Origin: Nepenthes gracilis
Taxonomy: Eukaryota; Streptophyta; Magnoliopsida; Caryophyllales; Nepenthaceae
Direction: 5' to 3'
Length of the DNA stretch: 64,000 nt
NCBI GenBank assembly: GCA_033239525.1
Contig: BSYO01000014.1
Span: forward strand, 5,622,536 to 5,686,535
Both the position numbers and the translations under genes were made by a program. The notes under the pieces were generated by a model. It ran no database searches, was not told where the DNA came from, and was given only the letters and a program-made list of their open reading frames with translations. The first letter of the stretch is position 1; every line of letters begins with the position of its first letter. Positions 3,033 through 60,320 of the stretch are shown piece by piece.

Positions 3033-3059
3033 TCTCCCCATGTTGACCCCTTGTAATCT

Positions 3060-6735: not shown

Positions 6736-6909
6736 AGGCCAGCACGTCTTTGACCCATCTATGTGCATTCACTCGCATGCTTGTTTTAATTTGACAAAAT
6801 AAGGAGTTTACTTAGCATATAGGATCCTAGGGTATATGAATTGCGTTTGCAGCGGAGTTTACCCGACCTAGGGGCGCCCCTAAGTCGGGAGGGTCTTCAC
6901 CCTCTCGTT

Positions 6910-7165: not shown

Positions 7166-7169
7166 CTTA

Positions 7170-39332: not shown

Positions 39333-39636
39333 CATCGCTTGCTGGAATATCCGTGGACTTAATGGGACAATCAAATCCCATGAAGTCGGGAACGTCATTC
39401 AGTCTTCCCGCTGTTCTATCTTTGGTCTAGTGGAGACCAGGGTCAAAGAAAATAAGGCTCCTCATATCTCTAACATGGTGATGCCTTCCTAGAAGTGGGA
39501 GATGAACTATTCGGAAAACCCTTCTGGCCGTATTTGGATTGGTTGGGATGATTCCTTTGTTGATTTAAGCATTTTATCCAAATCAGACCAATTTATGCAT
39601 TGCAGAACTGTTAATAGAATCAATGTATTATCATTC

Positions 39637-42600
39637 TTTTTTTTTTTGGTAAGTAAGAATTTTGGATTAATGGGAGAAAAAAAATTACAAGTTCTACGTT
39701 TTATCTCAAATATTATTACTTGGAGATAAAACATAAAGCGCTAGGGCATGCCCCGAGCAACTGGTACATCAGAAAAAAAAACATTAAAACAACCACAGAG
39801 ACAGAAAATGAAATTTGTCAACAATTTCACACGAACAAGTTCATGATCAGCTACTCCCAAATCGACAGGGTCGACTCAGCAAAAACAAACAACAATCATG
39901 TCATCCATCTCGGATCATCATCGGCACAGGACAACAGGGAATCGGCATCCTCTGGGTCACAGCAGATCACATCCACATCACGGTAGACAAATCACCCCCT
40001 CAGAGAAATTACATGGCAGCAGTATACCACTGTCCAGGCCATCAAAAAATCATGAAAAAAAAAAAGCAGATGAGCAACTTCAATTCCGGACGGTGCAAAC
40101 TCAGAGCAGCCACACCCACACAGGAGCAGTAACAGCACTACAAACCAATTAAAACCACAGAGGACTCAAGAACACTCCGGCAAATGCAGGGCAGAGGATC
40201 AGCATCAGCATCCAACTCGGCATGATCGGCACAGAGTACTACTAAACAGCAGCAGTACAAGATAATCACACAGCAATGGTACACATGTGATCAATCAGAT
40301 GCTCCACAATCAGAGGCAACACATCATTCAGCAATGAACATCAACCGAAATAGCCATCAGCCAATAATCCAATAAGCCACAGCATCTAGAGCAGTGGGAA
40401 CCAGCAGTCGAGTCCCATTCGAATCCACAGCTAAACACCATGGCCAGCAATTGCTTACCTCCAAAAAGAGACAGCTCGACCAGCAGCAAATTTCCAGCAA
40501 TTCCAAGCCACAGCATCTAGAACATCATTCCAGCAGCTCTAGCAAGGCTTTGCCAAAATCAGCTCCAGCACAATCATCAGAAAAACCTTGCATATCTGCA
40601 CTACTGCAGCCAGCAAACTGCATTCTGAGAATCAGGCACAGTAACCCTCAGCAGCAGAGAATTCCACCTCCAGCAGCACAGCCGAGGAACAAATCAGCAA
40701 TTCACCTCCGGCAGGATTAGCAAACCAGATAATGTAGCATAAAATTCCATTCAATCCTGCAAGATAGCACCACCACAGGCAGCGAGTCCTCCATTTCATG
40801 GGCAGCAATATTCTAGCTCCAGCATAGATCAAAGAAAAAAGGCCGCAGCGGCGTGCTTCAGCAGCATCAGACGAAGAAGCAGCACCAAGAAAACTGTAGC
40901 AACAGAATAGCCTAGTGCATAGCACCAGGTCCAGCAGCACCTGCCATCGTCAACAACATAAAAAACGGGCATAGCCACCAACCACCACTTAATGCACATA
41001 GGACACACCAGCCATACCAAGTCAAACCATAGCTGGGCAACTTCAACACAAAGAATTGCATCACACACAGCCTACAATAACAATTCTCAACCAGCTATAG
41101 ATTCCAGGAGCAGTAGCGAGAATATAGAATGATAAAAATCGGACTCCAACAACTTGCTGCAACAACCCAGCAAGGCCACCTCACGAGGCAAAAAAGCAGC
41201 ACCCATAAAACAGCTGCAACCATCATTGCAAGAGGGACAGAAGATATCCTACATCAATGTATTAGTACAATCAACCTACCACTGGTTGATGGAGATGTTC
41301 CTTTCCTTTACCTGGAATGCGCAAGAATTCGGAATGCATTGAAACCGGAGTGCATTGGACGGAGTGCTTGGGACGGAGTGATGCAGAGTCCGGAGTGGAA
41401 AATTTCCGATGTGCATTTTGTGGAGTGTAATTTTCCGAAGTGCTTTTGGCCGGAGTGCAATTTGTCAGAGTGCAATTTGCCGGAGTGCATTTTGCCTGTC
41501 CCTTTCCTTTGCTTGGAATGCACAAAGAATCCAGAGTGCATTGAATCCGGAGTGAATTGGACGGAGTGCTTGGGACGGAGTGTCGCAGAGTCCGGAGTGT
41601 TCTGGAGGCCGGAATGCACTCTTATCTGGAGGCCGGAGTGCAATGCCGTTGATGCTGATTTGCAGCAATCGAGGGAATGCAGATCAGATGTAGTGTTTGT
41701 CGCCAATTGGTGGAATGAATTGCTGGGCTGTAGTGGTTGTCCTGGTTGCTGAGACAGATTTGGATTGAGGGGTCAGGCTGTCAATCTGCTGCCTTGGTGC
41801 TCGATTCAGTACTGTTATCTCTGGTTGTCACTGGGCTGCAGTGAGGAGATGATTTCATATGTTGGTGAAATTGTCCGGAGTGCAATTAGCCGGAGTGCAT
41901 TTTGACGGAGTGAAAATTTTCGGAGTGCATTTTGTGGAGTGTAATTTTCCGAAGTGCATTTGGCCGGAGTGCAATTTGCCGGAGTGAGCGTTTGCCGGAG
42001 TGCATATTGCCTGTTCCTTTCCTTTGCCTGGAATGAGCAAGAATCCGGTGTGCATTGAAACCAGATGCATTGGACGGAGTGCTTGGGAAGGAGTGTTGCA
42101 GAGTCCGGAGTGGAAAATTTTTGGAGTGCTTTTTGCGGCGTGTAATTTTCCGAAGTGCTTTTGGCCGGAGTACAATGTGCCAGAGTCAACTTTTGCCGGA
42201 GTGCATTTTGGTTACAGGGGGTTGGAAAGCGGCGCTTTCCCTCTAGGTTGTGATGTAATATTTTTAATTTCTATAGATTTTATAGAAAGTTGGCCTCCTA
42301 GAGGTTGTTAAGTACTTTTGGATGTACTAGTTGCTCGGGGAATGCCCCAGCGGGTTATGCTTTATCCCCAAGTCAAAATACTTGGCGATAAAACATCGAA
42401 TTTATAATTTTTTCTCTCATTAATCCAAAATACTTACTTACCAAAAAAAAAACCATCAACCTACCACATCGATATGATCAGCAACAAGTTCCTCAGAATG
42501 CTACACCATTGCAATTTTGGCCACTCACTAACATTCGGCAGCATTTACACTGATCAGAATCAAGCTGAAGCCTAGGATCATCAATATCACCAGATTTAAA

Positions 42601-43306
42601 AACCTCAAGCAGAGACTACATCAGGTTCAAATCTGGCAGTACAAAATTATCATACCAGGCCGACAAAAACAACCTCTGAAGCTGCCAATCAGATCGGATC
42701 AACACATACCAGCGAGAGCATCAGTCGCCACCATTGGCAGCCCTTCATCTTTTGCTACAGTACAAGCATCAAACTCTCAATCCTCAAAGTGTTCAAAATA
42801 AAAGCCAACCGCACCAACCAGACAGGTATAGCAAACCAGAGCATCAACTCATCAGCCGGCAACTACATGTTTCAAAATAGCAGATGAACCACATACTAGC
42901 CACCCTATTGAAATCTGCATCAACTTTCTCTGATTCCTCCAGGCAGCATCAAACTCATCAACCGGCAGGAGGTAATAGCCGGCGTCTCCCAGAACCCAAG
43001 GTCGAGCATATTAAATTCATCCTGCTTCATCAGTAACAAACGTGGCAGCCAGCTACAAATCAACCATTTTCATTGGGCAACTGCTCTTCAATTTCAGAAA
43101 CAAACTACAACAACAGAACAGCATAGAGCATCCAAAAGGCAATGAGGTCCGAGAACCCCAGCATCAATGTGGTACCAAACAGATATAATTGGCTGCATCT
43201 GCATACCAATAAATGCCGATTGCAATGAAAGAGGGACAAAACACCATCTACTTCTTCTCTTTTTTTTTTTTTTTGAAAAAGTGAAAAGGGAAAGGCACCA
43301 GGAGTC
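39637..43306 (-). mobile_element. LINE-derived element in the endonuclease domain, minus strand, about 10-bp TSD
   Basis: ATCATTCTTT occurs at 39630-39639 and 43307-43316, and removing the insert restores RINVLSFFITFIYGSN across the endonuclease. Poly(T), GGTAAGTAAG and an imperfect stem-loop (39640-39770) give a minus-strand 3' end. At the other side, poly(T) at 43260-43274 with GAAAAAGTGAAAAGGG resembles the tail-III sequence at 52578, so the insert is composite. A younger plus-strand copy lies at 41283-42454. Confidence 0.8.
41270..42467 (+). mobile_element. 5'-truncated L1 3' UTR insertion with 13-bp TSD
   Basis: ATCAACCTACCAC is at 41270-41282 and 42455-42467. The insert (41283-42454) carries two blocks of CGGAGTGC motifs (41330-41660 and 41875-42210), then GGCCTCCTAGAGG (42291), the 3' core with GGGGAATGCCCC, an imperfect stem-loop and poly(A). 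A landmark CCTTTCCTTT...GGAATG recurs near 41298, 41507 and 42015, showing a higher-order unit of about 205 bp. Confidence 0.88.
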
Positions 43307-45073
43307 ATCATTCTTTATTACCTTCATTTACGGCTCCAACTCCGAGTTTCTTAGGAGAACTCTTTTGGATAACCTGCGTACCATCCACTCCCTCTCTTCA
43401 GGTAATCCTTGGGTTGTTTTGGGCGATTTCAATGCTATTCAAACACCCTCTGAAAATCTGGGGGGAAGCTAGCACGACAATAGTGCAAAGGACCTTGACT
43501 TATGCCTCACTGATTGCGATCTCCATGATCTGAGCTATGAAGGCACCTTTTTCACCTGGAATGATGGCAGAGATCCGGGTTCCCGCATCTACCGTAAACT
43601 CGACCGAGTGGTGGTTAATGGTCCCTGGCTGGCGGCTTTCAACTACAGGGCCTTTTTCCACCCTCCTCGCCTCTCGGATCACTCTCCCTGTGTGTTGTCC
43701 CCCTCCTCATCTAGTCCCCATAAATCTGGTTGCTTCCGGTTCAATAATTTCCTCGCCCAGCACCCTAGGTTCATTCCTACTGTCCAACAATATTGGAACA
43801 ATTCTATTCAGGGTGTCCCCATGTTCCGGGTTGTTTCAAATCTGAGGATCATAAAAGAGAAATTAAAGGATCTTAATCGTAGCATGGGGGACATCTCTGA
43901 AGGTGTCACTCAGACGAGAGCGGCACTTGAGGATTTCCAGAAAAAAGCCCCGTTCTCTGTCCCTCAATTCGGAGTTAATGAGAAAGAAAACCTTTTAGCT
44001 ATGTACTATAGAGCTCTAAGAACCGAACTTGATTTTCTTCAACAAAAAGCAAAAATTCGATGGCTCAGGAACGGCGATAAATGTACAAAATTTTTCTTTC
44101 AATCAATTGCTGGCAACAGAAACAAGAATCGTATCCTACCTTTAACCAAAGGAGACGGATCTGTCTCGAGTAGCCTGGAGGAAGTCCAGCATCTATTCAT
44201 TGAGCACTTTACACAGATCCTGGGTACGGGCAGAAGGAGTGGGCCATTTCCTAAAGAGTGTCTCCGGCCGTTTATTCTGCACTCCGTCCCTAATGAGCTC
44301 CAGATGGAGATGTGCAGGCCCATCAATGATGAGGAGGTCCTGTTGGCCCTTTACTCCATTGATGATAATAAAGCTCCTGGACCTGATGGGTTTTCTACCA
44401 AATTCTTTAAAGATTCCTGGAACGAAATTGGCCCTTCCATCACTGAAGCTATTCAGGACTTCTTTCACCATAGGAAGCTGTTGAAACAAATTAACACGAC
44501 CTTATTGTGCTTAATCCCAAAAATCAAATCGCCATCCAAGGTCTCTGATTTCCGGCCCATTGCGTGCTGCAATGTCTTATATAAGATCATTTCCAAGATC
44601 ATCGTCTCCCGCATTAAACCTTCACTTCCCCACCTTGTGGCAAAATGTCAAACTGCCTTTGTTCCGGGTAGGAGCATTGGTGATAACATTTTGCTTGCTC
44701 AGGAGTTGCTGCATAAATACCACCTGAATAAACGGGTCCCACGGTGTGCGATTAAAGTGGATTTGATGAAGGCATACGAATTTATCCATTGGGATTTCAT
44801 TTTGGCGGTCCTTGAACTGATGGACTTCCCCCCCATTGTGACTAAATGGATCAGTCAATGCATTACCTGAACTTCTTTCTCTTTAAGCCTCAATGGTGAG
44901 ACGGTGGGTTTTTTCCGTGGTTCCAAAGGACTTAGACAAGTGGACCCCCTTTCTCCCTATCTCTTTGTTTTAGGGATGGAAGTCCTTAATGGTATCCTTG
45001 TTAGAATGACTCAGACTAACCCGGATTTTCATTTCCACTGGAAATGTGCGGACACTAGAATTGTGATGCTTGG

Positions 45074-45140
45074 AGTAAAAACATAGATTATGTAATATTT
45101 TTCTCCCTATAATCCAAAATACTTACTTACCAAAAAAAAA
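45074..45140 (+). mobile_element. 67-bp LINE-tail insertion in the RT active-site codons
   Basis: The insert begins AGTAAAAACATAGATT, the second arm of the tail-I stem, and ends TTACTTACC plus poly(A). It separates VMLG from FADDLLLF, which are contiguous in L1-C (33485-33510). At most GG is duplicated, so the target duplication is absent or very short. Confidence 0.88.
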
Positions 45141-46252
45141 GGGTTTGCAGACGACCTCCTCCTTTTTTCCAAAGCTGATTGCAAATTTGTCCAAGCTTTA
45201 CACGAAAGTATTAATACATTCAGCTCTCTGTCTGGGCTTACTCCTAACCCGGACAAAACGCGATTTTTTGTTGCTCTGCAAGTGAGAGCACTAAGAGGGA
45301 TATCCTTGACATTCTCAGTTTTAGAATGGGCTCCCTCCCTGTCAAATACCTCGGCGTCCCACTCTTAACTACCAAACTTCTGGTTCCGAGTGCAAACCGC
45401 TTCTTGATAGAGTCCAACTTCGTATTTCTTCCTGGAAGAACCGCTGGCTCTCCTTCGCGGGTAGGCTCCAATTGATTTCCTCAATCTTATCCACAATTCA
45501 CAACTACTGGGCTTCCCTGTTCATCCTTCCTAAATCCATCTTGTAATGCATTGAAAAGTCTATTCGCACCTTCCTATGGCACGGTTCCTCTGATGATCGG
45601 TTCTCTGCAAAGGTTGCCTGGTCTGACGTGTGTTCTCCTAAAGAGGAAGGTGGGCTTGGAATCAAAAACATGACTGCTTCTAACAAAGCATTGTTGGCCC
45701 AGCATTTCTGGAGGATTGTTGCTAAGGATCCATGCTCCATCTAGGTTGCTTGGTGTCATGAACATCGTATCAAAGACCGATGCATCTGGACCATCAAAGT
45801 TCCGGACTCTGCCCCTTGGTGCTGGAAAAAGCTAATGAAATTGCGCAATACCCTGCGCACTAAAATTCGACATCAAATCGGTGACGGTGGCAACACTTTC
45901 CTTTGGCTCGACAGTTGGCATCCGCTCGGTCCACTTTGTGATAGATCTAATGAAAGAATCAGATGTATTACGGGGCTGCCTCTTGATGCTAAGGTTAAGG
46001 ATATTATCAGGAACGGTTCCTGGAGTTGGCCTAACCCTTATGCTATGGAGGTTGCTGAGATCCTGAATAATATGCCTCCTTACCTCCCGGATCCGACCCG
46101 AAAAGATGTGGTCCTTTGGACTGCTGATCAGCTAGCTAGAACCCACGCTGATTTAGAGAGAGAAACTCTCTCTTCTCTCTTCGAATTCAAATTCGAATTC
46201 GAATTCTGCCTGACGCTCCCCTCGTCTACGGCGGCGGTGCACGTCATCGGCC

Positions 46253-47893
46253 ATGGCCGTCTCCCCTGCTCCTCCTCCGGTGTCTGCCTCCCCCGTCCGT
46301 CCCCCACTCTCCGTTCCATTAAACACCGTCATGCCCTTTGTGAATCCTTCCTCGAATCTACCTTCGATTAGGACCCAGGCATCCGTTTCGTCTGCGTTCC
46401 CGAAGCCCATTCTCGACAAATCTGCCGGTGAATTTGTTTCTCCCCACTCCTGGGCCGATGTAGTAAAAAAAATCAAAGCTGGGCAAAGCTCTGAGCTGCA
46501 ATTCTTCTCTCACCATGCTTCTATGTCCTCGGATGGCGCTCTTTCTCCTCCGCCAGAGGTCATTGAACAGGGAAACGTCTTTTGGGGCCATACCTTGGTT
46601 GGCTATTTCCTTAATACACCTCCCCATTTCAAGGCTATTAAGGCAATTGCCATGAAGATATGGGCCTGATTCGGTCTCAAGCAAACCGCTGGCAACGAAG
46701 GCGGTTTCTTTTTCTTTCGCTTCCCCTCTGAAGAGATGGTGGAGAAATGCTTGCGTGCTGGTCCATGGGTGTTCTCTGGAAAAGCAATCTTCCTTAAGCG
46801 ATGGAAGCCAGGAATGGACTTGTCAAAAGAAGAACACAAGCGTTTTCCAATTTGGATTAAAATGTCGAACATACCGCTCGAACTGTGGTCTCACGATGGA
46901 CTTAGCTGGTTAGCTAGTGCGATTGGGATTCCTCTTCAGATTGATCCCAGGACTGCCCGTATGGAGAATCTTTCCTTTGCAAAGATGTGTGTTGAAGTTG
47001 GTCCTGCTTCTGCTGCAATTGCTATGGTGACAGTGGCTTATAGCTGGAAGCCAACCCGTTGTGCTCGATGCCAACAGATTGGTCATCTGGAGACAAAATG
47101 CCTGTCCAAGTCTGATCCAGGTACTTCTCATCCTAAGCCTTCAGGTTTAGCCCCTGCCGATCCTGTCCAAAGTGACAATGTTAGGCATCCTGTTTCTATT
47201 GTGGATTCTGTTTGCCAATTTGCCGTGCCTCCAACCGACGCAGTTGGTAATTCTGGCACTTACCCTGTTCTGTGGCTGAAGAAGCCTTGCCATTGGCCTT
47301 TTCGCCTTGCGCTGGGAACGTAATTGATGATTGCATCCCTCTTTCTGAGGTTCATGAAATCTTAATTCAGCCGGTTTCTCCCCCACATCCTTCTGCTGCC
47401 CCGAAGGTTGTTGAGGAACCTTGTGGCTGCAGTGGGAGTAGTCCCACCATTGTGGAGGTGATGGTCTCTCAAAACTCCCTTGGTCTGCTCCCTACTGTTT
47501 TGAGGTCTCTTGGCCTGTAAATCAGGATTCTCTCCCCTTCCAATTGATTACTGATGACAGTATCCAGCTTGAGTGTTTTCCTTCAAACTCACCTGCTGAC
47601 GATGGGTTCCAAGCTTGCCTTTTGGATGAATCCGGATGTTTGGATGATTCCCATGATAATCAGATTAAGGATTTGGCTCCTAACTCCCCTGATTCCGGGT
47701 CTGACCTTCATCCTTTGGATTTGGATGAGTACTTGCTTACCCTAGCTCTATCAAGAGGATTTCTTTGAAATATGCCTCGAATTCCTCTTCGGTAGATGAA
47801 TTGCGGGGTATGGAGTCTGATTGGAAGATTTCTAAGACAAGGAAAAAGAAAAAAGCTGCCTCTAAGAAATCCAGGGGCGCTTCTGGCTCTTAG
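46253..47893 (+). pseudogene. Half-L1-F ORF1: DUF4283-like protein with CCHC knuckle
   Basis: From ATG in CCATGG at 46253: Pro/Ser-rich N-terminus, then SWADVVKKIK, HTLVGYFLNTPPHF and IAMKIWA, where TGA (46667) replaces the Lys codon seen in L1-D and E. The frame continues with CLRAGPWVFSGKAIFLKRW, LSKEEHKRFPIWIKMSNIPLELW and ASAIGIPLQIDPRTAR, then an intact CCHC knuckle CARCQQIGHLETKC (about 47068-47103). After frame changes near 47270 and 47520 it ends ISKTRKKKKAASKKSRGASG-stop at 47893. The basic end matches E (SGRRRKAASMKNR) better than L1-D. It is the only ORF1 here with a complete knuckle. Confidence 0.85.
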
Positions 47894-48046
47894 GATCATG
47901 CTACTGGGGTATTTTTTGATTGGTCTTGCTCCTGGGACCCTGTTTCTGATATTCTGTTTTAATCTTATGTGTTGCTGCATGCTATGGCTTGGCGTGCTTT
48001 TTGGCTTGAATAAATATATATTGATGTGAATTTTGTGCTGTAGCCT

Positions 48047-48357
48047 TGCATTCTGTCTGGCTGCTGTCCAGAAGTTGATGGATGATTGCCCTTATATGGT
48101 TGTGGTGATGGAGTTGATCTGTTAAGGTGATGTTGCTGTTGGCACATTTGGCAGGTTCTCTGCTTGATGCAAAAAGGGCTTTTCAGTGGAGATGCTGGTT
48201 TTTTCTCATGGGTTACAGATTGATTCTTGGATGATTTCCTGTTGCTGAGAACTGCTGCATCCGCATGCTACTCCATTTGTTTGCTGAGCTGGCCTCTACT
48301 TCTGCTGGTGCCTTGCCTGGCTGCTGTCCAGATGTTGATGGGTGATTGCCCTTATAT
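48047..48357 (+). repeat. Pair of about 50-bp direct repeats
   Basis: CTGGCTGCTGTCCAGA(A/T)GTTGATGG(A/G)TGATTGCCCTTATAT (given here as a pattern) occurs near 48055 and 48320, about 261 bp apart, in the non-coding stretch between ORF1 and the 3' UTR tract of half-L1-F. Confidence 0.8.
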
Positions 48358-48469
48358 AATCTTGGATCTCTAACTCCTGGGATCTTCATCTTCCTCCACC
48401 ATCAGGTCTCGTGAGGGATGTTGTTGTGGTGATGGAGCTGCAGTGAGGAGATGAATTCATATGTTGGTG

Positions 48470-49277
48470 AAATTGTCCGGAGTGCAAGTAGCCGGAGTGC
48501 ATTTTGCCGGAGTGAAAATTTCCGGAGTGCATTTTGTGGTGTGTAACTTCCGAAGTGCATTTGGCCGGATTGGTTTTGCCAGAGTAAACATTTGCCGGAA
48601 TGCACTTTGCCTGTTCCTTTCCTATGCCTGGAATGCGCAAGAATCTGGAGTGGTGAAACCGGAGTGCATTGGACGGAGTCCTTGGGACGGAGTGATGCAG
48701 AGTCCGGAGAGGAAAATTTCCGGAGTGCATTTTGCGGAGTGTAAGTTTCCGAAGTGCTTTTGGCCAGAGTGCAATTTGCCGGAGTTTTGCCGGAGTGCAT
48801 TTTGCCTATTCCCTTCCTTTGCCTGGAATGCGCAAGAATCCGGAGTGCTTTGAATCCGGAGTAAATTGGACGGAGTACTTGGGACGGAGTGTCGCAGGAC
48901 GGAGTGCTTGGGACGGAGTGTTGCAGAGTCCGGAGTGGAAAATTCCGGAGTGCATTTTGCGGAGTGTAATTTTTCCGAAGTGCTTTTGGCCGGAGTGCAG
49001 TGTGCCGGAGTGAACTTTTGCCAGAGTACATTTTGGTTTCAGGGAGTTGGCAAGCGGCGCTTTCCCTCTGGATTGTGATGTTATATTTTTCAATTTCTAT
49101 AGATTTTGTAGAACGTTGGCCTCCTAGAGGCTGTTATGTACCTTTGGATGTACTAGTTGCTCGGGGTATGCCCCAGCCGGTTATGTTTTATTCCCAAGTC
49201 AGATTACTTGGCGATAAAACATCGAATTTGTAATTTTTTCTCCCTTTAATCCAAAATACTTGCTTACCAAAAAAAAA
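48470..49277 (+). repeat. CCGGAGTG higher-order repeat and tail I of half-L1-F
   Basis: Two copies of a unit of about 205 bp are marked by CCTTTCCT(A/T)TGCCTGGAATG near 48617 and 48822. Each contains about ten GGAGTG words with phrases such as GCATTGGACGGAGT and CTTGGGACGGAGTG. The same phrases occur in 41330-41580. The tail has GGCCTCCTAGAGG (49118), the core and poly(A). Confidence 0.85.
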
Positions 49278-49872
49278 GTTCTCATCAAAATCGGCATATG
49301 GGATTTTCCGTGAGCCTCACGCTGCGGTTGAGTGGGTTAGCCTTGTCTGGGGTCCCTAGTCCATCCCGTCTCACTCCTTTATCCTCTGGCTGGCTATCCG
49401 AAATAGGCTTAGCACCCTTGATAGGATTGGCAACTACCTTCACATCCCTGCGGCATGCATCCTCTGTCCCAATGGAAGGGAATGTCATGACCACCTCTTC
49501 TTTGATTGCCCTTTCTCCTCGGTTATTTGGCATCATATGCGTCATAGAGCTGGTTGTTGCTGGCCACAATCTAATTGGAATTCAAACATCTTGTGGGCTG
49601 CTAAATGTTGGTAAGGCAAAAACCTCAAAGCTTTCTCGTTTCGTCTTACTCTTGCTGCTTCTATCTACTTTATCTGGAAGGAAAGGAATCATCGCATGTT
49701 TAAGAATACGAGGGCTCTTAACGAATCCCAAATGGTTGCCCAGATTTCTACGGCAATTTGGGGGAAGCTAGAGGTGTCTCATAATGCAGTCTCTGAGCTG
49801 GACAGGCAGGTCTTGAACAGATGGAACATCCCTAATACAAGTCTGCATTCAGATGTTGTGATTCCTGATTGA

Positions 49873-50850
49873 CAGCCAGAGTGATTTCTCTTCTGATCAT
49901 GGAGGGAGTCACTCGCTGCTGGTTGTTTCCGGAGTGCCCAAGCGTCATAAGTTTGCTGTCGTCCGGAGTGCCCATGCGTCATACATTTGCTGTCGTCCGG
50001 AGTATTTGTGGCTTCTTGGAGGATGGATTGCCCAAGCATCATCCATTTGATGAAGCTAGGAGTGAGTGTGGCCTCTAGGGGGCCGGAGTGTGTCCGGTGC
50101 TCTCTTTGCCGGAGTTCGTTTCTTTCTTTTTTCCTGGTTGCCCTTTGTCTTTTTTGACAATTAGGGGGGACGGAGTGCTCTTTGTCTTTAAGGACAGAGT
50201 GCCCTCTTGGTTTTTTGAATCTGGTGCTCTCTTGGCTGGTGTTCATTTCTTCCCCCAATAAAAAATAAAAAAAAAATTAAGGCCGGAGTGCTTTTGATTC
50301 CGGTTCTCTTTTGAAAAAAAAAAGAGAAGAGGCCGGAGTGCTTTTGACTCCGGAGCTCTTTTTTGAGAAAAAAAAATTGAATCGAGGCCGGAGTGCCTTT
50401 GATTCCGGTGCTCATTTTGAAAAAAAAAAAAAGGAGAAGAGGCCGGAGTGTTTTTGACTCTGGAGCTCTTTTTTGGAAAAAAAAAAAAAGTGCTTGGCGT
50501 CTGTTAGTTCCGGTGCCCTTGTTGGCTGGAATGTCATAATGGCTTGAGCTCTCTTTTCCGGAGCTCTTTTGACGGGAGTGCTTGCTTTCATCCGGAGTTC
50601 CTTTTTTGCTGGAGTGTCTTTTGTTGGACGGAGTGAAAGCAACCTGGAGTTTGGTGGCTGAGAGGTCCGGACTCCGGAGTGCAAGGAATCCAAACTCTGG
50701 GTGAGCCGTTTTTAATCCGGAGTGCCTTCTCCCCGGTGTGATTACGTCTGATGACTGGATTGTTTTCGATGAGGACGGAGTGCTTTATATTTCGCACCTA
50801 GGACGGAATGGCCTGCTTTTGTCTTCTAAAAAGCCGGAGTCCAATCGGCT
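49873..50850 (+). repeat. L1-D 3' UTR with CCGGAGTG motifs
   Basis: CGGAGTGCCCA(A/T)GCGTCAT is repeated at about 49930 and 49966. Then GGCCGGAGTG units with A runs form a local tandem at 50281-50495, and looser motifs run to about 50850. No tail is present, so the 3' end was lost. Confidence 0.8.
50281..50495 (+). repeat. Four A-tailed repeats of about 50-55 bp
   Basis: Units begin GGCCGGAGTG at 50281, 50331, 50386 and 50441. Each reads GGCCGGAGTGCTTTTGA then CTCCGG(A/T)GCTCTTTT and an A run of 8-13. The A runs separate the units. Confidence 0.9.
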
Positions 50851-50859
50851 ACTCTCGAA

Positions 50860-52577
50860 ACGACTGATTCAACAACATCCAATCACCTCGCAGCAGCTTA
50901 CAACAGCAAGAAACAAGTGCTGCCATCAGCCTAATTGCACCCCTAGTTTTCCAACAGCAGCAAAGCAATAGGCAACAGCAGCACACCCCGAGCCCCAACG
51001 CTAGCAAAAGATCAGCAGCAGCTGCACAGTCTAGGAATTCCCAGCAGATCAGCAACCATCAGCAGGAGCATGGTATATACCAAACTTCACCCACATGCTA
51101 ATGGAAGACAACAACCCTTCCTAGAAATTCTACCATTCCACCACTAAGCAGGCCAAATAAGCAATAGTAGTAGACTCAGCCAACCAGCTACCAGAGTTCC
51201 CATCAGCAGCAGGCCAATGCAATTGCATCAGCGTCCATAGCCCCCAACACCAGCAAATGGCTCCAGCAGCAACCATTTGGCATCTTTGTTCTATATCAGT
51301 TGCATAGTCATTTCATCTCGGCAAACCATAGCAACTCACAGGACAGATGTTCACCTTGCTTCAGCGATCAGCACACAGCAATTCAGGAATTTAGCAGGGG
51401 CCAGCTCTCACCCGACAGCATCAAGTATAGTAGGCAACAACATCATACACCAGCTAGCATGCTAAATGCCATGGGCAGCAGCGATCCTTGCTTCAGCATG
51501 AGAATGCAGACAGTCCAACTCTAAATGTTTCAGCATCACAGCCCACAACCACACCATCAATGACAACCCGAACCAGCAATACAGGCTTCAGACCACAACC
51601 AACGTCAGCAAGTAGCAAAAGCCAAACATTGCTGCATCAAATCTCACTCATACACAACATTAGCTAGATGCCAAGAAGCCAAATGTCAATAACCAGCACC
51701 TCCCAGCTGAAGTGGAGATGTCATATGCTGACCCAGGCAGTTCCGCAGCAACCGACAGCAGTGCCTGCAACAAAGGTTTCAAAATCCCCGCACGTAGGCA
51801 ACCCCCTCAAACTAGCAGAAGGTAGCAATGACATAAAACAGCTGTGCATCATTTGCGCCAGCACACCAACGAGTAGTTAAGAATTCCAAACCGGCTTGCA
51901 TCAGCACCGGCCAAAGAAGCTGCAGGCTGTAGCATCATGATCAAAGCCTTCACTCCCAACCAAGCACCATATGCAAAAGCAACAGATGAAGCTAACAGTC
52001 CAGCACCACATTCAACAAATGCAGCAGAGCCACCAGCATCAAGAGCAGTTGCAATCCAGCATCAGCAAGGACCAAAGGATCCAGATCCAGCAAATCCAGC
52101 AACAGCATCCATCAAAAAAAAGTTCAAGCAGTCAAAAGTTCTTGTCCAAGAGCAGGTCCCCTGAGCATTTCGTGGGCTGAACCATTTGGCAGCTCATAGG
52201 GACATTCAGCTGTAAAGCTCTCAGAAAAAACCAAAAGCAGGAGTAGCAGCCGAGAATTGAAGCAACAACTAACGATGTCACACTAGATTTCTAGCATCAG
52301 GATAAGCAATAGCAGCCTGCAACACCAGAGCCAAGGAGCAGCATGCGTGGAAGAGCACATTCCAACCCAAACGGACTGCACGTCGGCCTTAGACCGCTGC
52401 ATACTAGGACAGTCCTCCCAGACAGCCTTCACTCCAGCTCCAATAATTCAGAATGCCAAACGCCTAGTTAAACCATCTAGAATCCACTGATGCAGAGTGC
52501 CCGAATCCATGGAACATAAAAGGTATCTGCCCAACAGATCTCAGTGATTGAAACAGCCACATCAAAATTTTCAACCT
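50860..52577 (-). mobile_element. LINE-derived ORF-less sequence, minus strand
   Basis: The plus strand is CAG-rich with CAGCAGC steps, as in the other minus-strand copies, and no ORF is plausible. No poly(T) marks the left border at 50860, so the 3' end of this copy has been lost or replaced. Confidence 0.45.
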
Positions 52578-52665
52578 ATTTTTTTTTTGGACTCCGAAAG
52601 AGAGAAAAACAGAGTCCAAGGAAAGGAAAAGTGCCGAAGGAAAGGCACCAGATAGCAAAAAAATT
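52578..52665 (-). repeat. LINE-like 3' end of a different type (tail III), minus strand
   Basis: Poly(T) at 52580-52588 is followed by GGACTCCGAAAGAG...CAGAGTCC and GTGCCGAAGGAAAGGCACC, two short hairpins in tandem. A diverged copy (poly(T), GAAAAAGTGAAAAGGG, AAAGGCACCAGG) lies at 43260-43303. It looks like the 3' terminus of another non-LTR family. Confidence 0.5.
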
Positions 52666-53017
52666 TTATTTAAATAACCAGACCTCCAGGGGACGGAAGG
52701 GACAACCCGAAGGAAGCTAAAACCAACAAAGAAAGGGGCAACCAGCGGGGTCAAACAACAAGAAATGCATCGAGGAGCCAGAACCGGCTGAGCACTTACA
52801 GTAAACCACCACGATGCACAAGCCCCAGCGTCACAAACCTCATGAGCAATAAGAGGTCCAGCAACCCCAAACAGTAGAGAAAAAAGAAATATATAAATAA
52901 AAAAATATGAAAGATCTAATTCTTTTTTGGGGAAGAAAAGGAAAATAAAAGGATATAAATATAACAATATAAACGAATATGAATATATATGTATTTGAAA
53001 GAAAAGAAAGTATAATT
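52666..53017. other. No gene; upstream body of the tail-III element
   Basis: Mixed sequence ends in an AT-rich stretch at 52880-53015 (ATATAAATATAAC steps). I see no coding signal and no repeat shared with the LINEs here. Confidence 0.4.
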
Positions 53018-53141
53018 TTTTTTTTTTTTTTGGTAAGTAATTAATTGGCGGTTGGTAAAAGCCCACGAAGTTAGTCCCCTTTCTAGAGAGAGGTGCTCTC
53101 CTCTCTCTCTAGGTTTCAAAATTTGAGCGTTTGCCCTAGCC

Positions 53142-55028
53142 TCGCCTCTCATTCTTCCCCCTTCTTTTTTGGTAAGTAAGTATTTTGGATTAATGGGAGA
53201 AAAAATATACACAAACAAAGCTTTATCTCTAAGTATTTTAACAGGGTGATAAAACATAAAAGTTAGGGCATTCCCCGAGCCGCTGAGTACAACAGAAGAC
53301 ATCAAAATGATGAAACAAGAGCAAAATCCCCTAAGGGTATGCACTCAACAAAATCGGCCAAACATGAAGTCTGTCCATTTTAGAAAAACAAGTCTTCGAC
53401 GAAGGATGTGTCAGCGCACCTCCATATCAGCGAAAAGACCACACGCAGGAAGCCATCACTGGATCGGCAACTTCGGCTGTAGCTTCATCCAACGCAGCAG
53501 CCAAATATCAAAAATAACTACTCAAATATTTGGCTAGAGAAGCCAAAAACCAGGCTGGAGCAGCAGTACCACAACTCCAAGAGTCCAAGAGATGCGCCGA
53601 CAGCAGCAGCTGTTGAATCTACAGCTTCAGCACCACTACAAGAGGCTCAGCTACAAGCAGCAAAGCCGATTGCTGCAAAATCCAACAGCAACCGGGCATC
53701 AGAGCCATTCAGAATAGCAGCAAATCACTGGGCACGAATCAGCCCCAACACCAACACAATATGCCAGTAGATTCAACAATCCAACTACTAATAAAACTGG
53801 CAGCATATACCAGGCAACAGCAGTCCAAGAGACTGCTTCACATAAAGGCTACAAGCAGAAGGGCCTCCTCCATCACAGAAGGTCTTTTTTCTGCCACCAG
53901 GAATCAGCCTTCAACAACCGTTGACAGCCAGAAGAGGCACCTTCATACTGCATCTCAGCGACATCCTATCTCAGGGCATGGTCAGACCAGCACCCGCAAA
54001 ATCAGCAAACAAAAATTACAGAATAAAGCATCAAGACAACAGATTAATCCCAAATCCCTCAATCCCATTCTGGTCTCAGCAATAGAAACGAAGAAAAAGC
54101 CAAAGGAGGCATCTACAGAACATTGCAGCAAACCTTAAATTAGTGCAATCAAAGCCCTCAACTTCAGCGACCACAATCTCATTGCAACAGCATAGGCGAA
54201 GACCAATCCAAGCCCACCGCCTCGGAAGGATTACTAGCGTCCAAACCAGCCCCTCCCAGCGCCCGGCCTCCAGCCTATAATTCCCGGACTGCAGCAAAAT
54301 GGGCTCCCAACCCATCCAACAGAAGGAAATCACGGGCAGAGAGGCTTTAGGACCGGGCATGTGATACAGTTCGTCAATGGACAGATCCAATAGAAGCACG
54401 AGGGCATTTGTTTCGGACAGCTGCTCCCGAAATCGAGGATCGCAGCATAAACCAGATAACACATAGCCAAAGCTTCCGCAAGGAAACCAGAGAAAGGGCT
54501 CTCGGCCTCAACAGCCAGAGGATAGAATCCAGGCAAATCCGGATGAGAGAAACCCTAATAAATCGAGAATCGAAGTTGAAAAGAGAAAGGAACACGAGAA
54601 GAGGCCCAGAAAGAGTAGAACTCCAAACGGAAACAGCCTCATCAGATGCGAACATGGCTACAGCAGAGACCCCGGTCAGCTCTTACCCGAATAAGCTACC
54701 CCAGGGCAACCGGCATGAGCCTTCATCCCAATCTACTTCAGCAAAACGAGCCCACATCCACGGCAAAGGCCTCAATGGATGACGGCGAAGCCAGGTCAGA
54801 GGACCGGAGACGTAGAGAGCAAGAGAAGAGAAGGAGAACGGGAGGCAACCGGACGAAGCAACCAGGAGACCGACCGTGGCCGGCTTCGGCGCCGCCCGGC
54901 CAGAGGAGGAGCGCCGCAGAAGACGTGGACAAAATTGAAAATGAAATTTGAAACGTAGAGAGAAGCGAGAGCTTGTCTCTCTAGGCGGTTCCGTTCCAGC
55001 AACGAAAATTCGCCTCTCATCCTTCCCC
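53142..55028 (-). mobile_element. ORF-less LINE-derived element in half-L1-E leader, 19-bp TSD
   Basis: TCGCCTCTCATTCTTCCCC (53142-53160) and TCGCCTCTCATCCTTCCCC (55010-55028) differ at one base. The insert (53161-55009, 1849 bp) has poly(T), GGTAAGTAAG and the 3' core on the left. On the right it has the longest 5' end of the class: AGAGAC hairpin (54958-54985), AAATTTC-rich spacer, and the GC-rich head at 54850-54915. GGTTGGGAGCCC-type words are near 54300. Confidence 0.9.
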
Positions 55029-55038
55029 ACCGGCGCCG

Positions 55039-58000
55039 ATGGCGCCGGTCCTCCACACGGGCCCCTGCTCTCCTCCAAAAGAATCCATCCCCTCCTCTCT
55101 TTCACTTCCTGGTGCTGCTTCGTCCTCGCCTTCCACTTGCTGCCTTTTACCGTCCTCGCTGGCAATCTCACATTTTTTTTTGGTAAGTAACTATTTTAGA
55201 TTAAATGGAGAAAAATAATTACAAAAAACTATGTTTTATATCCAAGTATTTTGACTTGGAAATAAAACATAAAAGCTAGGGCATACCCCGAGCGGACAGT
55301 ACATCAAAAAATACATAAAGGCCTCTAGGAGGATAACGTTTAACAGAAACCAAAATATGACATTTCCTTCATAAAAAATATGAAAAGGGTTCAGCACCAG
55401 AAGCGCCAAAAACTGAGCCAAGCAAGGCAAATTTCCTTCATCAGAGGGATCTAGCATCCGAGCCCCATCCGAAGCCGCTGCAAACTCCATCGGCCGGAGC
55501 AACAATAACCAAATTAGATGCAAAAATCTTCAGAGAGGCATCACTATCCAGCAGACGAAAACAATGGCCACGACCCAACAGCGGCCAATGCAACATCCGT
55601 ATTACACCCATCATTAAAACTGGGCCAGCAACTCACCAGCCACAGCCTCACAAAACTGGCATCAAGATGATGCCAAAGCAACCAGCAGTTCTACATTTTT
55701 GCAGGAGCAGATCCGCCAACCTCAGAAGACTCTGCAATTCAAGGCCTCCAGAGAGTAACCTCAAGATCAAGATAAGACAGGTTAAAACCCTACACACCAA
55801 ATGAGCCTACAACCTCATCAAAATTCCTCAACATATAGCAGCCTTGGTCCACAAACCGGTCGAGACAAGGCCAGCACTACAACACGAGCCAGCAAAGACA
55901 GGTGTCTCACGGCATCGAAGCTCACAGATCCCCATTACGAGACGTCTTAAAACTTCCATAATTAGGATCATAACCCCAAACCTGGCTCAACCAATCACAT
56001 AAGGATCAAAACCCCAATCCAACTAATGCATCACAAACATGAGATCCCTTTAGGAGCTCAAAAAGCAAATAAACATGTGCAAACCGGATTTGTACACACA
56101 AGAGAACGAATTTCAAAACGGCAAACAATGAAAAATAGAGAATCACCCAGGACAGTGCATGTGACTCACCCGGCGCCCAAAATTCACCTTCCAGACCGAG
56201 ATGGGCGTCGCCATAATGTCAACTCCATCCATGCCGCAGCAGACACAAGGAAACAGCAGGAAGCCCCCAATGCACCAGCAGCCCAGTTTCTACAACAGTA
56301 GAGCAGAGTGCTACGGCGACACCCATTCATGAACTAGAATTGAAACTATCACAACAAGGCTAGATAGGAACAAAATAGCCCCAGCAGCCACCTCAGCCCA
56401 GTAAACCAACCGGGACCAGGCAAATACACAACGCCAGCAAGAGTCAAACCAGGTGAAACAAGCAAAAGGAGAAACCTTGGGCAGAACAAGGCAGTTCACC
56501 AAAACAAGCAGCAAACTAAAGGATTTCCATCGCATCAGAAGGAACCCTTGCATCCAGACAGATCCCCAGCCAGCACTTCAGATCCTCAGCCTAATAGGTC
56601 CCCGCTAGAGTTGCCCGGCATCCCCCAATCCATCCAACAGGGGGAACTCACAGGCAGAGAACTTCAGACCAGCAGCGCAGACCTTCGATTGCAACGGGTC
56701 CAACGAGTAGTACGAAAGCCAAATCCAGCCAGTAACCAAAGTACAGGGAACCATGGAAACGGGCATAGATACAGGGAACCATGAAACTGGGCATAGAAGC
56801 CCAGACGACAACGAAGGCGGAAGAGCCGAAGGAACGTAGATAGAGGCTTCATCCCAATCAGAAAGGGAGATTCGACTCAGGCTCACAGCCCTAAGCTCGG
56901 ACCGAGGAGAGAGTCGATCTTGTGAGAGCATCGAGCCGCAGCCGAAACCTCAGAGTATGCAGAGCCACACCGCCGACATCTCCAACAGCTATAACGGATG
57001 AGGAGAAAGGCCATCGGGCACAACCTTCATCCCAGACTGAAAGTGGTGGAAGCAGGCAAGGCACGTAGCCGAAGACGAGAAGCAACCAGGGGGGAAATGG
57101 ACGAAGCAACCAGGAGACCGGCCGGGGCCGGCTACGGCGCTGCCCAGCCAGAGGAGGCAGAACCCTAGGAGCGCCGCAGAAGACACTGGCAATCTCACAT
57201 GCCCCTCTTCCGTTAGGGTTTCTGGTGTTCATGCTCTGCAAACTGGGTCTGCTGTTGAGGACAGGGATGCCTGTGCGCCATGCACTCCCGTATTTGATGT
57301 CGGGCCCATCCCGGCTGATTTTGTTCCTGTTCCACTGGATGAGTCCTCGAAACCGGATTCCAAGCCCTCGCAGTCATGGGCTTCCATCGTCAGCAATGAC
57401 TCCATGGATGTAGGTTCTCAGCTCAAATTTTTCCCTCCCCCGTCCCCAATTGGTCCTGACATTGAGCTTTTTCCCCCTGCTGAGGTTATTCAGCAGGGAG
57501 AAGCCTCTTGGAGGGATTCCCTTGTGGGTTATTGTTATGAATTCCCCCTTAATTTCTATGTGGTCAATCATATTGCCCGTAAGATTTGGGCTAAATTCGG
57601 AATTTCTCATGTTGCTGAGATGGAAAATGACTTCTTTCTATTCCGGTTTGCATCCGAAACTCAGATGCAAGAGTGCTTAAACCATGTCCCGTGGACCTTT
57701 GCTGGACGTCCTTTCTTCTTAAAGAAATGGTCTCCGAATTTGGTCCTTTCTAAGGAGGATCACAAATCCTTCCCGATTTGGGTTCATCTCAAGGAGGTTC
57801 CTGTCCAATTTTGGACCCCTCTGGGACTTGGCTGGATTGCCAGTGCCATTGGGAAACCCCTCCATATGGATCCTGCTACTGCCAAAAGGGATTGTTTGAG
57901 GGTTACGCGTATTCGAGTAGAAGTCTCATTGCTTGATCTGCTGATAAAATCGAGTAAGATTAGGGAATCTCCGGGAGATTCCTTGGGGTCGACGTAAAGG

Positions 58001-59120
58001 TGGATTATCCGTGGGAAACCTAGACAAATTGACTCGGGGGAAAAGGATTCACCATAAGAGTCATCTCAAGATGCCCCAAAAAGCATCTCAATCGGGTGCC
58101 AGATCCCATTGGCACCGGTGACAAGCGCGGGTGGGAAAAGGTTCGTGGAAGGCTAAAAGCAAGTCTCATTTCGAGGCTTTATCTGCTTGGACCCAAGTGC
58201 CGGAGTGCAATTCCTTTGCGACATTACAATGCCTAGAGGCGGACACCCTTTTAGAATCTTCTGCTGGGGTCTATGTGCATCATAGTGCAGAAGCTGAGGC
58301 TGATACATTAGCCGGATCAATTACTTCTGATGCTGGGGTTTCCCATGAGGCTGTTGCCCTACTTGAGGGTACCCGGGCTGCTGGCTCTCTTCCTGGACCC
58401 CTCGAGGCCCCACCTGATTCCCACGCTTCGGGTCCATTTGAGGTGGTAGATCCTGATATTACTCCTGAATCTATCTCTCGGATCATTCAGAAATACTCTC
58501 TGGATGGCTCTCCAGTTGACCTAGCTGGGACTAGCACTGTGAACAAGAAGGCTACTCTAGATGGTAGTATTCTAGATGCGGATCTGATCGTCGATCAGAC
58601 CCCTATCTCTGATTCAGATGATGAGGATCCATATGAGAAGGAACCATTGTACTTGGCTTTTCTGCAGCTCCTGGACTCAGATGGCTCTCAGCAACTATTC
58701 CATGACGCCCTTGCTGAGCATAGGAAACTTGTGACGGACTTCCTGAACAGGTGCTGGCAGGATATAACTGATGAGAAATTTAGTAAGTTCCGCTCAGCCT
58801 TTCCGTTGGATGCGGCAGATAATGGGTTTCCCAATGATGCTTATTTGTTGGCTTTCCAACTAGTTTTTATGGCTGACTCCTCTCAAGCCCATAGTGCCTC
58901 ATTCTCTCCAGAGGAGGAGAAGGTTGTTTTTGGTTTCCTGTCTTCCTTGTTGAAATCGACATCAAATTGTCCGAGTATCCAGAAATGTAATCTGATTGAA
59001 TTTTTATCTGGGCTACATGGCAATGCCTTTATGATCCCGACTGAAGAACCCTGGCGTCAGTACAAGTCTGGGAGGCGGCGTAAAGCTGCTTCCATGAAAA
59101 ATCGGACTTCTTATGCATGA
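55039..59120 (+). pseudogene. Half-L1-E ORF1: DUF4283-like protein with long acidic and C-terminal region
   Basis: ATG at 55039 (CGATGGCGCC) starts a Ser/Pro-rich N-terminus, broken at 55173 by an insertion and resuming at 57201 (VRVSGVHALQ). The DUF4283 region is at 57404-57950: FFPPPSPIGP, HIARKIWAKFGI, PWTFAGRPFFLKKW, FPIWVHLKEVPVQFW, MDPATAKR. A frame change near 57950 removes the knuckle. From 58131 the frame is open for 329 codons: an Ala/Glu/Asp-rich linker, ITPESISRIIQKYSL, an acidic SDSDDEDPYEKEP, then a helical-looking domain (HDALAEHRKLVTDFLNRCW, DEKFSKFRSAFPLD) and a basic end GRRRKAASMKNR. This C-terminal domain is not in L1-D ORF1 and I do not recognise it. Confidence 0.82.
55159..57200 (-). 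mobile_element. ORF-less LINE-derived element in half-L1-E ORF1, perfect 15-bp TSD
   Basis: CTGGCAATCTCACAT is at 55159-55173 and 57186-57200. The insert (55174-57185, 2012 bp) starts with poly(T), GGTAAGTAAC and the 3' core (stem ATTTCC/GGATAT on the element strand), and ends with the GC-rich head at about 57110-57175. CCCCCAATCCATCCAACAGG near 56622 matches the internal words of the other copies. The perfect duplication indicates recent insertion. Confidence 0.93.
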
Positions 59121-60264
59121 AAACCTGCTGATGTCGGTTTGGGTGTGGGTGATTTTGTGCCTTGAGGCAGTTTGGAGGCCTGAGTGCTTTTTTCGGAATG
59201 GCACTGCGTGATGTTTCCGGAGTGATTTTTATCTAATTGGCCGGAGTGGTTGGAGATGCCCTTGAGGCCGGAGTGGCCTTGTTCCTTCAACTTCTGGAGT
59301 TCTGTGAAAAGCTGGATGTCCGGGGGACTTTTGTCTCATTGACCGGAGTGAACGGAAATGCTCTTGTGGCCGGAGTGGCCTTGTGCCTTCAACATCCGGA
59401 GTTCTGTGAAGAGCTGGATCTGTGAAGCACTGGATACATTCTGCTGTTGATTAGGAAGATGATGTTCTACTGGGAACCGTATGCTGCATCGAAGCCCATT
59501 CGGATGCTGGTCCGCTAATTGGCTGGAGTGCCTTTTTCGTCAAAAGGCTAGAGTGCCTCAAACTAAAAGGCCGGAGTGGCCTTTACAAGATTTCGGAGTG
59601 AGTATTATACTCTCTTTGGCCAGAGTGGCCAGGCGTGAGTTGTGGTCGGAATGGCCAAGTGCCGGAGTACTGTTTTTGATAACAGGCCGGAGTGGCCTTG
59701 AATAAGAGGCAGTCGGAGTGTTTTTTTTTTTCACTAAAAGGCCGGAATGGCTTGAGTGTTTTGAGGCCGGAGTAACATTGCGTATGTTGAAGCCGGAGCA
59801 CATTTTGTTCTCGTTAAGCCGGAGTGGTGTGCGTTGCGGATGTTGAAGTGGTTTCCGGAGTGCCTATTTTCCGAAGTAAGAGGTTTCCGGAGTGCCTTAT
59901 TTCACTATGAAGCCGAAGTGGCCTGCTGTAGTTGAGGCCGGAGTGACAAGGTGTTTGCTGAAGCCGGAGTACATTTTGTACTCTTAAGCCGGAGTGCGTT
60001 GCGGATCTTTTGATACGAATTGTATTGAGATGAACTGGCCAGACGATGCTGTTATGGCGCTTTCTTCATTCACTTTGGCCGGTGGTTGTTATCTTTGCAA
60101 TGATCGAATATTATTGTATCCTTATTTTTGATGACTGATGTCATTTGTTTAGGGGACTCCCCTGTTTCTATGTTTATTTCCCAAGTTCGGCAAAACACTT
60201 GGTTAAGAACATAGATCGTTGTACATTTTCTTTAAATTTAATGCATTAATTACTTACCAAAAAA
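59121..60264 (+). repeat. Half-L1-E 3' UTR: CCGGAGTGG tract and tail II
   Basis: GGCCGGAGTGGCCTT and close variants recur from 59220 to 60000, with an early direct repeat (GTTCCTTCAACTTCTGGAGT / GTGCCTTCAACATCCGGAGT near 59281 and 59382). Tail II follows: CTATGTTTATTTCCCAAGTTCGGC, AAAACACTTGG stem partner, GAACATAGATCG, and TTACTTACC plus poly(A). Confidence 0.82.
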
Positions 60265-60320
60265 AAGTAATTAATTGCATTAAAATTAAATGATATGCAC
60301 AAACAGCTATGATCTTCACC

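Follow-up and report, generated by a model that had tools for sequence, protein, structure and literature searches.

HeT-A of Drosophila is a telomere-specific non-LTR element that encodes a Gag/ORF1 protein, of another type than the one considered here, and lacks reverse transcriptase (RT); the ORF1 protein of mammalian L1 is also of a type other than DUF4283. The elements that we describe below as half-L1s resemble HeT-A in being non-LTR elements with an ORF1 and no RT. Mammalian HAL1, according to the available portions of two reports, consists of ORF1 only, with a poly(A) tail, target duplications and many copies, and is said to rely on the endonuclease (EN) and RT of full LINEs (PMC5753468, PMC5322556). 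In poplar, the L1-clade LINE Celine combines a DUF4283 ORF1 with poly(A), target duplications and centromere clustering; it has both ORF1 and ORF2, and the available part of the paper calls the shorter Celine copies truncated or disrupted and does not present them as a family with ORF1 only (PMC11288735). The accessible text on maize presents ZmSINE2/3 and LINE1-1_ZM as stringent SINE/LINE pairs with a common 3' end that includes a stem-loop (PMC3747384), and that on Magnaporthe reports template-jump chimeras made from cellular transcripts during LINE reverse transcription (PMC2104539).

The locus analyzed here is a stretch of 64,000 nucleotides of Nepenthes gracilis contig BSYO01000014.1, hereafter the window. 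Like HAL1 as portrayed in those portions, its half-L1s are ORF1-only, present in many copies of common structure, and equipped with poly(A) and target duplications. They differ in that ORF1 is a DUF4283 protein with its own C-terminal motif, in their deep groups, and in that at least one type carries a 5' module from two-ORF LINEs. The HAL1 parallel drawn in the first-pass annotation thus holds for the way of working and not for membership: half-L1s work like mammalian HAL1 without belonging to it. With Celine, as described there, they have in common the DUF4283 ORF1, poly(A), duplications and clustering, here in centromere-like regions; of the features of the plant L1 clade they possess this ORF1 and lack the ORF2 with EN and RT that makes an element autonomous. 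As in the maize pairs, so far as that text goes, non-autonomous and autonomous partners have a common 3' stem-loop end, except that the partners in maize are SINEs, whereas half-L1s are about 3-4 kb long and encode ORF1. Half-L1 E is, like the Magnaporthe chimeras of that account, composed of parts of different RNAs; unlike them, it draws both parts from LINE types, and the mosaic itself has been recopied. No plant counterpart of half-L1s was found in open-licence papers. We consider it likely that half-L1 A and half-L1 E represent long-lived families of ORF1-only LINEs that replicate in that form and are moved in trans by two-ORF LINEs.

Anatomy of half-L1 A and half-L1 E

A and E were first annotated as elements that possess a DUF4283 ORF1, 3' UTR and poly(A) but lack EN and RT, and the domain and tblastn results agree with that description at the positions in Table 1. 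The DUF4283 domain lies at 46736-47323 in A (E-value 1.7e-25) and at 57404-57997 in E (E-value 1.2e-32). EN, RT and zf-RVT queries (tblastn, E-value <= 0.01) found no match in either element, and the same search detected both EN and RT in the control, L1-D. Several insertions, A among them, have broken up L1-D, and a paralogue at 34450-34520 represents the uninterrupted version of the ORF2 into which A inserted. A search for a target duplication around A found none, and one genomic relative, L022, is alignable to A from 46157 onward. ORF1 is interrupted by a stop and frameshifts in A, and by stops or frameshifts in E.

Table 1. Positions of half-L1s and associated features in the window
Feature	Position	Strand	Remarks
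Half-L1 C-terminus fragment of ORF1	21862..22369	+	TPKSIKRITRKY at 22235
L1-D	37602..49875	+	two-ORF type; ORF1 from 37602, ORF2 from about 39331
Half-L1 A	46136..49277	+	head, ORF1, 3' UTR, tail, poly(A); inside ORF2 of L1-D
A ORF1	46253..47893	+	DUF4283, CCHC-like run, acidic C-terminal region, KKAASKK end
A 3' UTR	47894..49263	+	CCGGAGTG repeats and two-hairpin tail
E target duplication, left copy	53035..53047	+	AAGTAATTAATTG
E head	53048..53163	+	
Nested element in E	53164..55010 (about)	-	no long ORFs; not part of E
E ORF1 start	55011..55173	+	ATG at 55039; between the two nested insertions
Second nested element in E	55174..57185 (about)	-	no long ORFs; CTGGCAATCTCACAT on its flanks
E, remainder of ORF1, 3' UTR, poly(A)	57186..60266	+	
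E ORF1 5' module	57186..58280	+	two-ORF type
E ORF1 C-terminal module	58270..59120	+	half-L1 type; TPESISRIIQKY at 58461
E 3' UTR, type II tail, poly(A)	59121..60266	+	
E target duplication, right copy	60265..60277	+	AAGTAATTAATTG, exact 13 bp

E spans 53048-60264, about 7.2 kb including two nested minus-strand elements, so that E proper measures about 3.4 kb. The 13-bp duplication reported around it proved exact, and because the flanks of E, joined end to end, resemble a minus-strand sibling's 3' tail, this duplication is more than a shared element end. A sibling of E elsewhere in the genome, L030, is colinear with it through the tail at 88.5% DNA identity and has a duplication of its own. 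If A and E were separate two-ORF LINEs that had each lost ORF2 after insertion, the missing duplication of A and the broken ORF1 of both would be readily accommodated; this reading is contradicted by the colinearity of L030 and by the recurrent junctions counted below, and we find it scarcely credible. As read from its sequence, E is a mosaic, of two-ORF type to about 58280 and of half-L1 type beyond. Its 5' module matches L009 at 74-90% DNA identity per 100 bp, and 57369-58270 is 78% identical to L1-D; L030 carries a two-ORF 5' module as well. This mosaic nature was absent from the first-pass annotation. The window also contains elements without long ORFs whose head and tail are similar.

Copies and junctions across the genome

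In the source genome (752.5 Mb), the A-type junction from the ORF1 stop to the 3' UTR is present at all 40 scored places (of 293 candidates). When loci are ranked by the ORF1 C-terminus alone, the first 20 include 17 with this junction and the first 41 include 29, those without it lying outside the 40 scored places. The ORF1 C-terminus of E has 139 genome matches. Forty of 171 E-type candidates were scored; 13 of them, including E, follow the UTR of E for 197 bp or more beyond the stop, and the other 27 diverge from it 8-50 bp after the stop. Fifteen of these 27 were inspected, of which 14 have in common a second UTR of at least 120 bp, and no EN was found within about 1.2 kb in any of the 15. 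The junctions are therefore neither unique to A and E nor, in the E-type loci inspected, followed by an EN, as would be expected if most relatives carried ORF2 there, and the claim that half-L1s are copied as units is supported.

The 20 DUF4283 loci whose open frames are longest comprise 10 two-ORF loci, nine ORF1-only loci and one unresolved locus. Half-L1s could still be recurrent, short-lived deletion products of two-ORF elements that possess the half-L1 C-terminus and were missed, given that just 150 of 3476 DUF4283 candidates were scored and that L022 is ambiguous: beyond a nested piece, its A-like ORF1 front continues as a two-ORF back, and it may belong to the two-ORF elements despite a front of half type. 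We regard this as very improbable, since the half-L1 motif TPxSIxRIxxKY, even loosely defined, occurs in none of 15 two-ORF intervals (against 11 of 12 ORF1-only copies), and since no EN belonging to the element lies downstream in any of the 29 loci of half type whose sequence was read for 1.1 kb or more beyond ORF1 (L030-L036, L037-L042, L043-L054, L010, L011, L012 and L017). L010, L017 and L025 have no tail of their own within the stretch read, so that "ORF1-only" there means that no EN or RT lies downstream.

Target duplications accompany E, L030, L018 (16 bp, exact), L015, L028a, L028b and L014, the last matching at 13 of 14 bp; none was found at the tails tested of L011, L012 and L032. 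A tail at 4062 in L014 had grouped with that of the two-ORF element L020, a link that was dropped when the duplication set the end of L014 at 5584. DNA duplication also contributes to copy number. C52 holds six A-type junctions at intervals of 3.09-3.10 kb, and 77 of 82 DUF4283 matches on 11 contigs fall within the densest 15% of their contig, as one might expect if copies arose mainly by DNA duplication, tandem amplification or gene conversion in centromere-like regions and not by retrotransposition. That E, L030, L018, L015, L028a and L014 differ in the duplication next to poly(A), and that copies are spread over many contigs, makes such a main origin distinctly unlikely in our estimation.

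ORF1: constraint, groups and the C-terminal module

The first-pass annotation had taken a KKAAS-like C-terminus as the common mark of these ORF1s. A does end in KKAASKK; TPxSIxRIxxKY is the better marker of half-L1s, and the C-terminal motif is also present in the fragment at 21862-22369, which fits the suggestion that it may belong with them. A CCHC-like run follows DUF4283 in A, L015, L018, L022 and L028a; in E and a number of other copies it is not clearly recognizable.

A tree separates half-L1 groups H1, H2 and H3 and two-ORF groups T1 and T2 with two label changes, a number as low as which was reached in none of 500 shuffles. A single clade of 14 half-type rows with L022 outside is rejected (p 2e-103); with L022 placed on the half side the split narrowly escapes rejection (p 0.057), and half-L1s may have had a single origin or two. 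DUF4283 of the ORF1-only copies is under purifying selection, with dN/dS of 0.09-0.22 in 10 pairs within H1, H2 and H3 (dS exceeds 1 in four pairs, and L022 enters two). Over the whole ORF1 of the near-identical pair L015/L018 dN/dS is 0.54, and over the E-type C-terminus it is 0.28-0.94. These values bear on whether ORF1 might be a passenger, the tails mobilizing half-L1s like large SINEs and the constraint on DUF4283 reflecting only 5' modules that arrive from two-ORF LINEs under selection. Import of such a module is seen in E and L030, the window elements without long ORFs imply that movement does not strictly require ORF1, and the C-terminal module is weakly constrained, with the value for L015/L018 over the whole ORF1 as given above. 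We nevertheless think a passenger role unlikely, because the constraint on DUF4283, with the limits on dS and L022 just given, is found inside half-L1 groups that stand apart from the sampled T1 and T2, and because long frames persist in ORF1-only copies, though the loci were selected for long frames.

Protein searches with the E C-terminus alone returned no match among 2805 candidates. L018 ORF1 gave one match, 37% covered and without the motif, and an alignment of eight half-L1 ORF1s gave two, the second from the same genome; few plant ORF1s were among the sequences that the database returned. The predicted structure of the E-type C-terminus has a mean pLDDT of 55, with a helical block at 126-230 mostly at 76-85 and a dip to 56, and no fold match was found (36 with E-value <= 10, best 3.2).

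Probable movement in trans and its implications

The 3' tails of half-L1s are similar to those of two-ORF LINEs; among the two-ORF tails compared, a good duplication links only that of L021 to its element, and one of 11 bp with one mismatch links that of L019. Across 59 distinct tails, 78% of cells are paired compared with 68% in shuffles (at most 72%), a figure that is not controlled for relatedness and in which the search pattern itself dictates the innermost pairs. A conserved 3' stem-loop with covariation, by which stringent-type LINE tails are recognized, is present. Given this likeness of tails and the missing EN and RT, which are features of anatomy, half-L1s are probably moved in trans by the ORF2 protein of two-ORF LINEs. 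A half-L1 would make its own ORF1 protein, which would bind half-L1 RNA. This RNA, recognized through its poly(A) and the two-hairpin tail common to both kinds of element, would be copied through target-primed reverse transcription by ORF2 protein from a two-ORF L1 present alongside. E may then owe its mosaic structure to a template jump in which copying passed from half-L1 RNA to two-ORF RNA.

One attractive possibility, which we put forward tentatively, is that of a bipartite LINE system, in which lineages that have ORF1 only, with a derived C-terminal domain, endure alongside two-ORF LINEs, need their ORF2 protein and swap 5' modules with them. ORF1 and ORF2 would then be partly separate, recombining replicons in centromere-like regions, and the derived domain might have its own task, such as recruiting foreign ORF2 protein or targeting.

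Annotated DUF4283 genes may be parts of non-autonomous elements and call for caution, an example being the Nepenthes gracilis gene model Nepgr_005312 (P0002), one stretch of which is identical in reading to the ORF1 of L015. Tests can now address whether the plant ORF1 protein is cis-acting, which function DUF4283 has and how a template is selected by ORF2 protein. The half-L1 life style would be extended from mammals to a plant with a different type of ORF1, and ORF1-only parasitism of LINEs would be a recurring solution.

ORF1-only LINEs in the window

Both half-L1s of the window, the ORF1-only LINEs A and E, carry DUF4283 in an ORF1 whose frame is disrupted. The first-pass annotation had described them as lacking endonuclease (EN) and reverse transcriptase (RT), and our searches bear this out: queries for EN, RT and zf-RVT gave no match in either element at an E-value <= 0.01, and in the same search the EN and RT queries matched the control, the two-ORF LINE L1-D. 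The target duplication it had reported around E proved to be exact, and the flanks of E joined in order resemble a minus-strand sibling's 3' tail. Both sides of A align with a paralogous ORF2 at 33492-34997. ORF-less elements constitute a third class alongside the two-ORF and ORF1-only elements.

Half-L1s and associated features (window positions, except for the genomic loci L022 and L028)
Feature	Position	Strand	Description
Half-L1 A	46136-49277		Inside ORF2 of L1-D
Half-L1 E	53048-60264		Bounded by exact 13-bp duplication
ORF-poor element nested in E	53164-55010	-	~2 kb, LINE-like head, shared 3' tail, no long ORF
Second ORF-poor element nested in E	55174-57185	-	CTGGCAATCTCACAT on both flanks; ~2 kb, head and shared tail
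ORF-less element	about 60340-62318	+	~2 kb, LINE-like head, shared 3' tail, no long ORF
CCGGAGTG repeat arrays	48470-49030, 49930-50850, 59210-60000		In 3' UTRs of two-ORF and half-L1 elements alike
L028 half-L1 pair	976-7401 (reverse complement of fetched stretch)		Head to tail, same target word GTATCCAGAATGG
L022 junction region	2530-3440		A-like half-L1 front, nested minus-strand piece, ORF1 end and ORF2 of other LINE type

Recurrence of half-L1s in the genome

The window (G000:C14:5622536-5686535) belongs to an assembly of 752.5 Mb in 133 contigs; according to a paper on N. mirabilis (PMC12244726), the published N. gracilis assembly has 176 scaffolds, 40 of them at chromosome scale. A search of the genome for DUF4283 yielded 3476 candidates; 150 were scored, and the 20 of these with the longest open frames form our census, a set skewed towards long ORF1s. 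Ten are two-ORF loci (L009, L013, L016, L019, L020, L021, L023, L024, L026, L027); L009 is internally deleted with most of EN gone, and in the nine retaining EN it begins 0.6-0.9 kb past DUF4283. Nine are ORF1-only: L011, L012, L014, L015, L018 and L028 have a tail downstream with no EN/RT in between, and L010, L017 and L025 show neither EN/RT nor a tail of their own, at which a duplication could be sought, within the stretch read. The last, L022, was counted in neither class. The ORF1 C-terminus of E has at least 139 genome matches (137 of 953 candidates scored) and that of the A type at least 178 (150 of 552).

DUF4283 hits are clustered: in the 11 contigs of known length with at least four of the 150 hits each, 77 of 82 fall in the densest 15% of their own contig, and uniform placing is disfavoured at p <= 0.0015 in eight, the exceptions being C17, C24 and C39. 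This pattern is reminiscent of Celine, a centromeric LINE of poplar. A public N. gracilis gene model, Nepgr_005312 (P0002), includes part of a half-L1 ORF1.

The first-pass annotation had asked whether the ORF1-to-UTR junctions are unique to these copies; they recur. With a query of L018 DNA spanning the ORF1 end and the UTR start, the A-type stop led into the same UTR at every one of the 40 places scored from 293 candidates; at one of these, L015, the match runs 23 bp beyond the stop and resumes after 65 missing query bases. Because this query favours copies holding both sides, we also ranked A-type copies on the ORF1 C-terminus alone. The 20 best-ranked copies include 17 with the junction and the 41 best-ranked include 29; the remaining 3 and 12, respectively, lie outside the 40 scored places. 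For the E type (40 places scored of 171 candidates, stop at query 299-301), 13 places, E included, reach query position 498 or further and 27 diverge 8-50 bp beyond the stop. Fifteen of these 27 were read, namely L031, L033, L036 and a further 12: no EN was found within about 1.2 kb of any of them (lowest tblastn E-value 0.30), and apart from L031 they match one another over at least 120 bp of a second UTR. Six A-type junctions at 98668-114811 of contig C52, regularly spaced at 3.09-3.10 kb, look like a tandem array of half-L1s.

The earlier proposal that half-L1s are copied as units is supported by duplications at E, L030, L018, L015, L014 and L028, but not for A, where, as at L011, L012 and L032, a target duplication was sought and not found. 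L030, 88.5% identical to E from ORF1 through the tail, has its own (AAATTCTTTCCTTT exact, 16/18 overall). L018, with a 628-codon open frame, sits within another LINE between exact 16-bp duplications; L015, which shares 97.5% identity with L018 across 1976 bp (head through ORF1), has a 17-bp T-rich duplication with one mismatch, and that of L014 matches at 13/14.

Modular structure and constraint of ORF1

The C-terminal part of half-L1 ORF1s carries the motif TPxSIxRIxxKY (strict form 11/12, loose form 12/12); in several, a tryptophan and a basic terminus (W...K.RRRK and similar) come after it. Neither form occurs in 15 two-ORF intervals, some of them decayed and that of L009 shortened, and this is the stronger half of the test because the motif was first derived from the same half-L1 copies.

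The E ORF1 is composite. A comparison in steps of 100 bp puts E at 74-90% identity with two-ORF L009 as far as about 58280, with no match past that point, and L1-D matches E at 78% over 915 bp ending at 58270; the E-type half-L1s L031-L036 do the reverse, matching E from about 58270-58390 onward, bar one 100-bp step of L031. The DUF4283 tree places E and L030 together (99/91) within a two-ORF group (T2, branch 100/98), and L031, L032 and L036, which have the E-type C-terminal module, fall in a half-L1 group (100/99). In L028 the two half-L1s match each other at 80.8% over 406 bp at the end of ORF1, and also in the tail; their DUF4283 domains are placed in different half-L1 groups. L022, whose A-like ORF1 front leads through the nested piece to the back of another ORF1 type and its ORF2, is possibly a mosaic in the opposite direction to E. 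Changes between half-L1 and two-ORF states number two in this tree (shuffle mean 8.8), a pattern that one or two old losses, or module exchange, would give. A single half/two-ORF split is borderline (p 0.057) if L022 is scored as half and is rejected otherwise.

DUF4283 dN/dS is 0.09-0.22 among half-L1 pairs (10 pairs, two with L022 and four with dS >1; one further pair undefined), 0.30 for E/L030, and 0.09-0.21 in six two-ORF pairs, with 1.06 in one near-identical pair. Values for whole ORF1 are 0.54 (L015/L018) and 0.52 (L017/L025), and those for the E-type C-terminus 0.28-0.94 (28 non-independent pairs from 8 copies). At the sequence level, these ratios indicate that DUF4283 is kept functional in both kinds of element and that the rest of half-L1 ORF1 drifts faster.

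Shared tails and comparison with HAL1

The last 150 bases are similar in all three classes, two-ORF, ORF1-only and ORF-less. In a tail tree built without support values, E, L030, L028a, L028b and L031 group with two-ORF L009 and L019; A, L011, L015 and L018 group with two-ORF L021, L023 and L024 and with ORF-less elements; L012 is separate and L032 is placed elsewhere. Of the two-ORF elements compared by tail, L021 alone has a good duplication that links the tail to the element; the duplication of L019 is 11 bp long with one mismatch. Hairpin arms were found by pattern in 62 of 70 full tails and not in 8, and across 59 distinct tails 78% of hairpin cells are paired, relative to 68% (maximum 72%) with partners shuffled, a few rows being misplaced by the pattern. 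These data fit a model in which the ORF2 protein of a two-ORF LINE would recognise the half-L1 tail in trans, the same principle as that proposed for stringent LINE/SINE pairs (PMC3747384).

Mammalian HAL1 is described as coding for ORF1p only, with several separate origins (PMC5753468), and human HAL1 as numbering nearly 2,100 copies with poly(A) and duplications (PMC5322556). Among open-licence papers, we found no plant half-L1.
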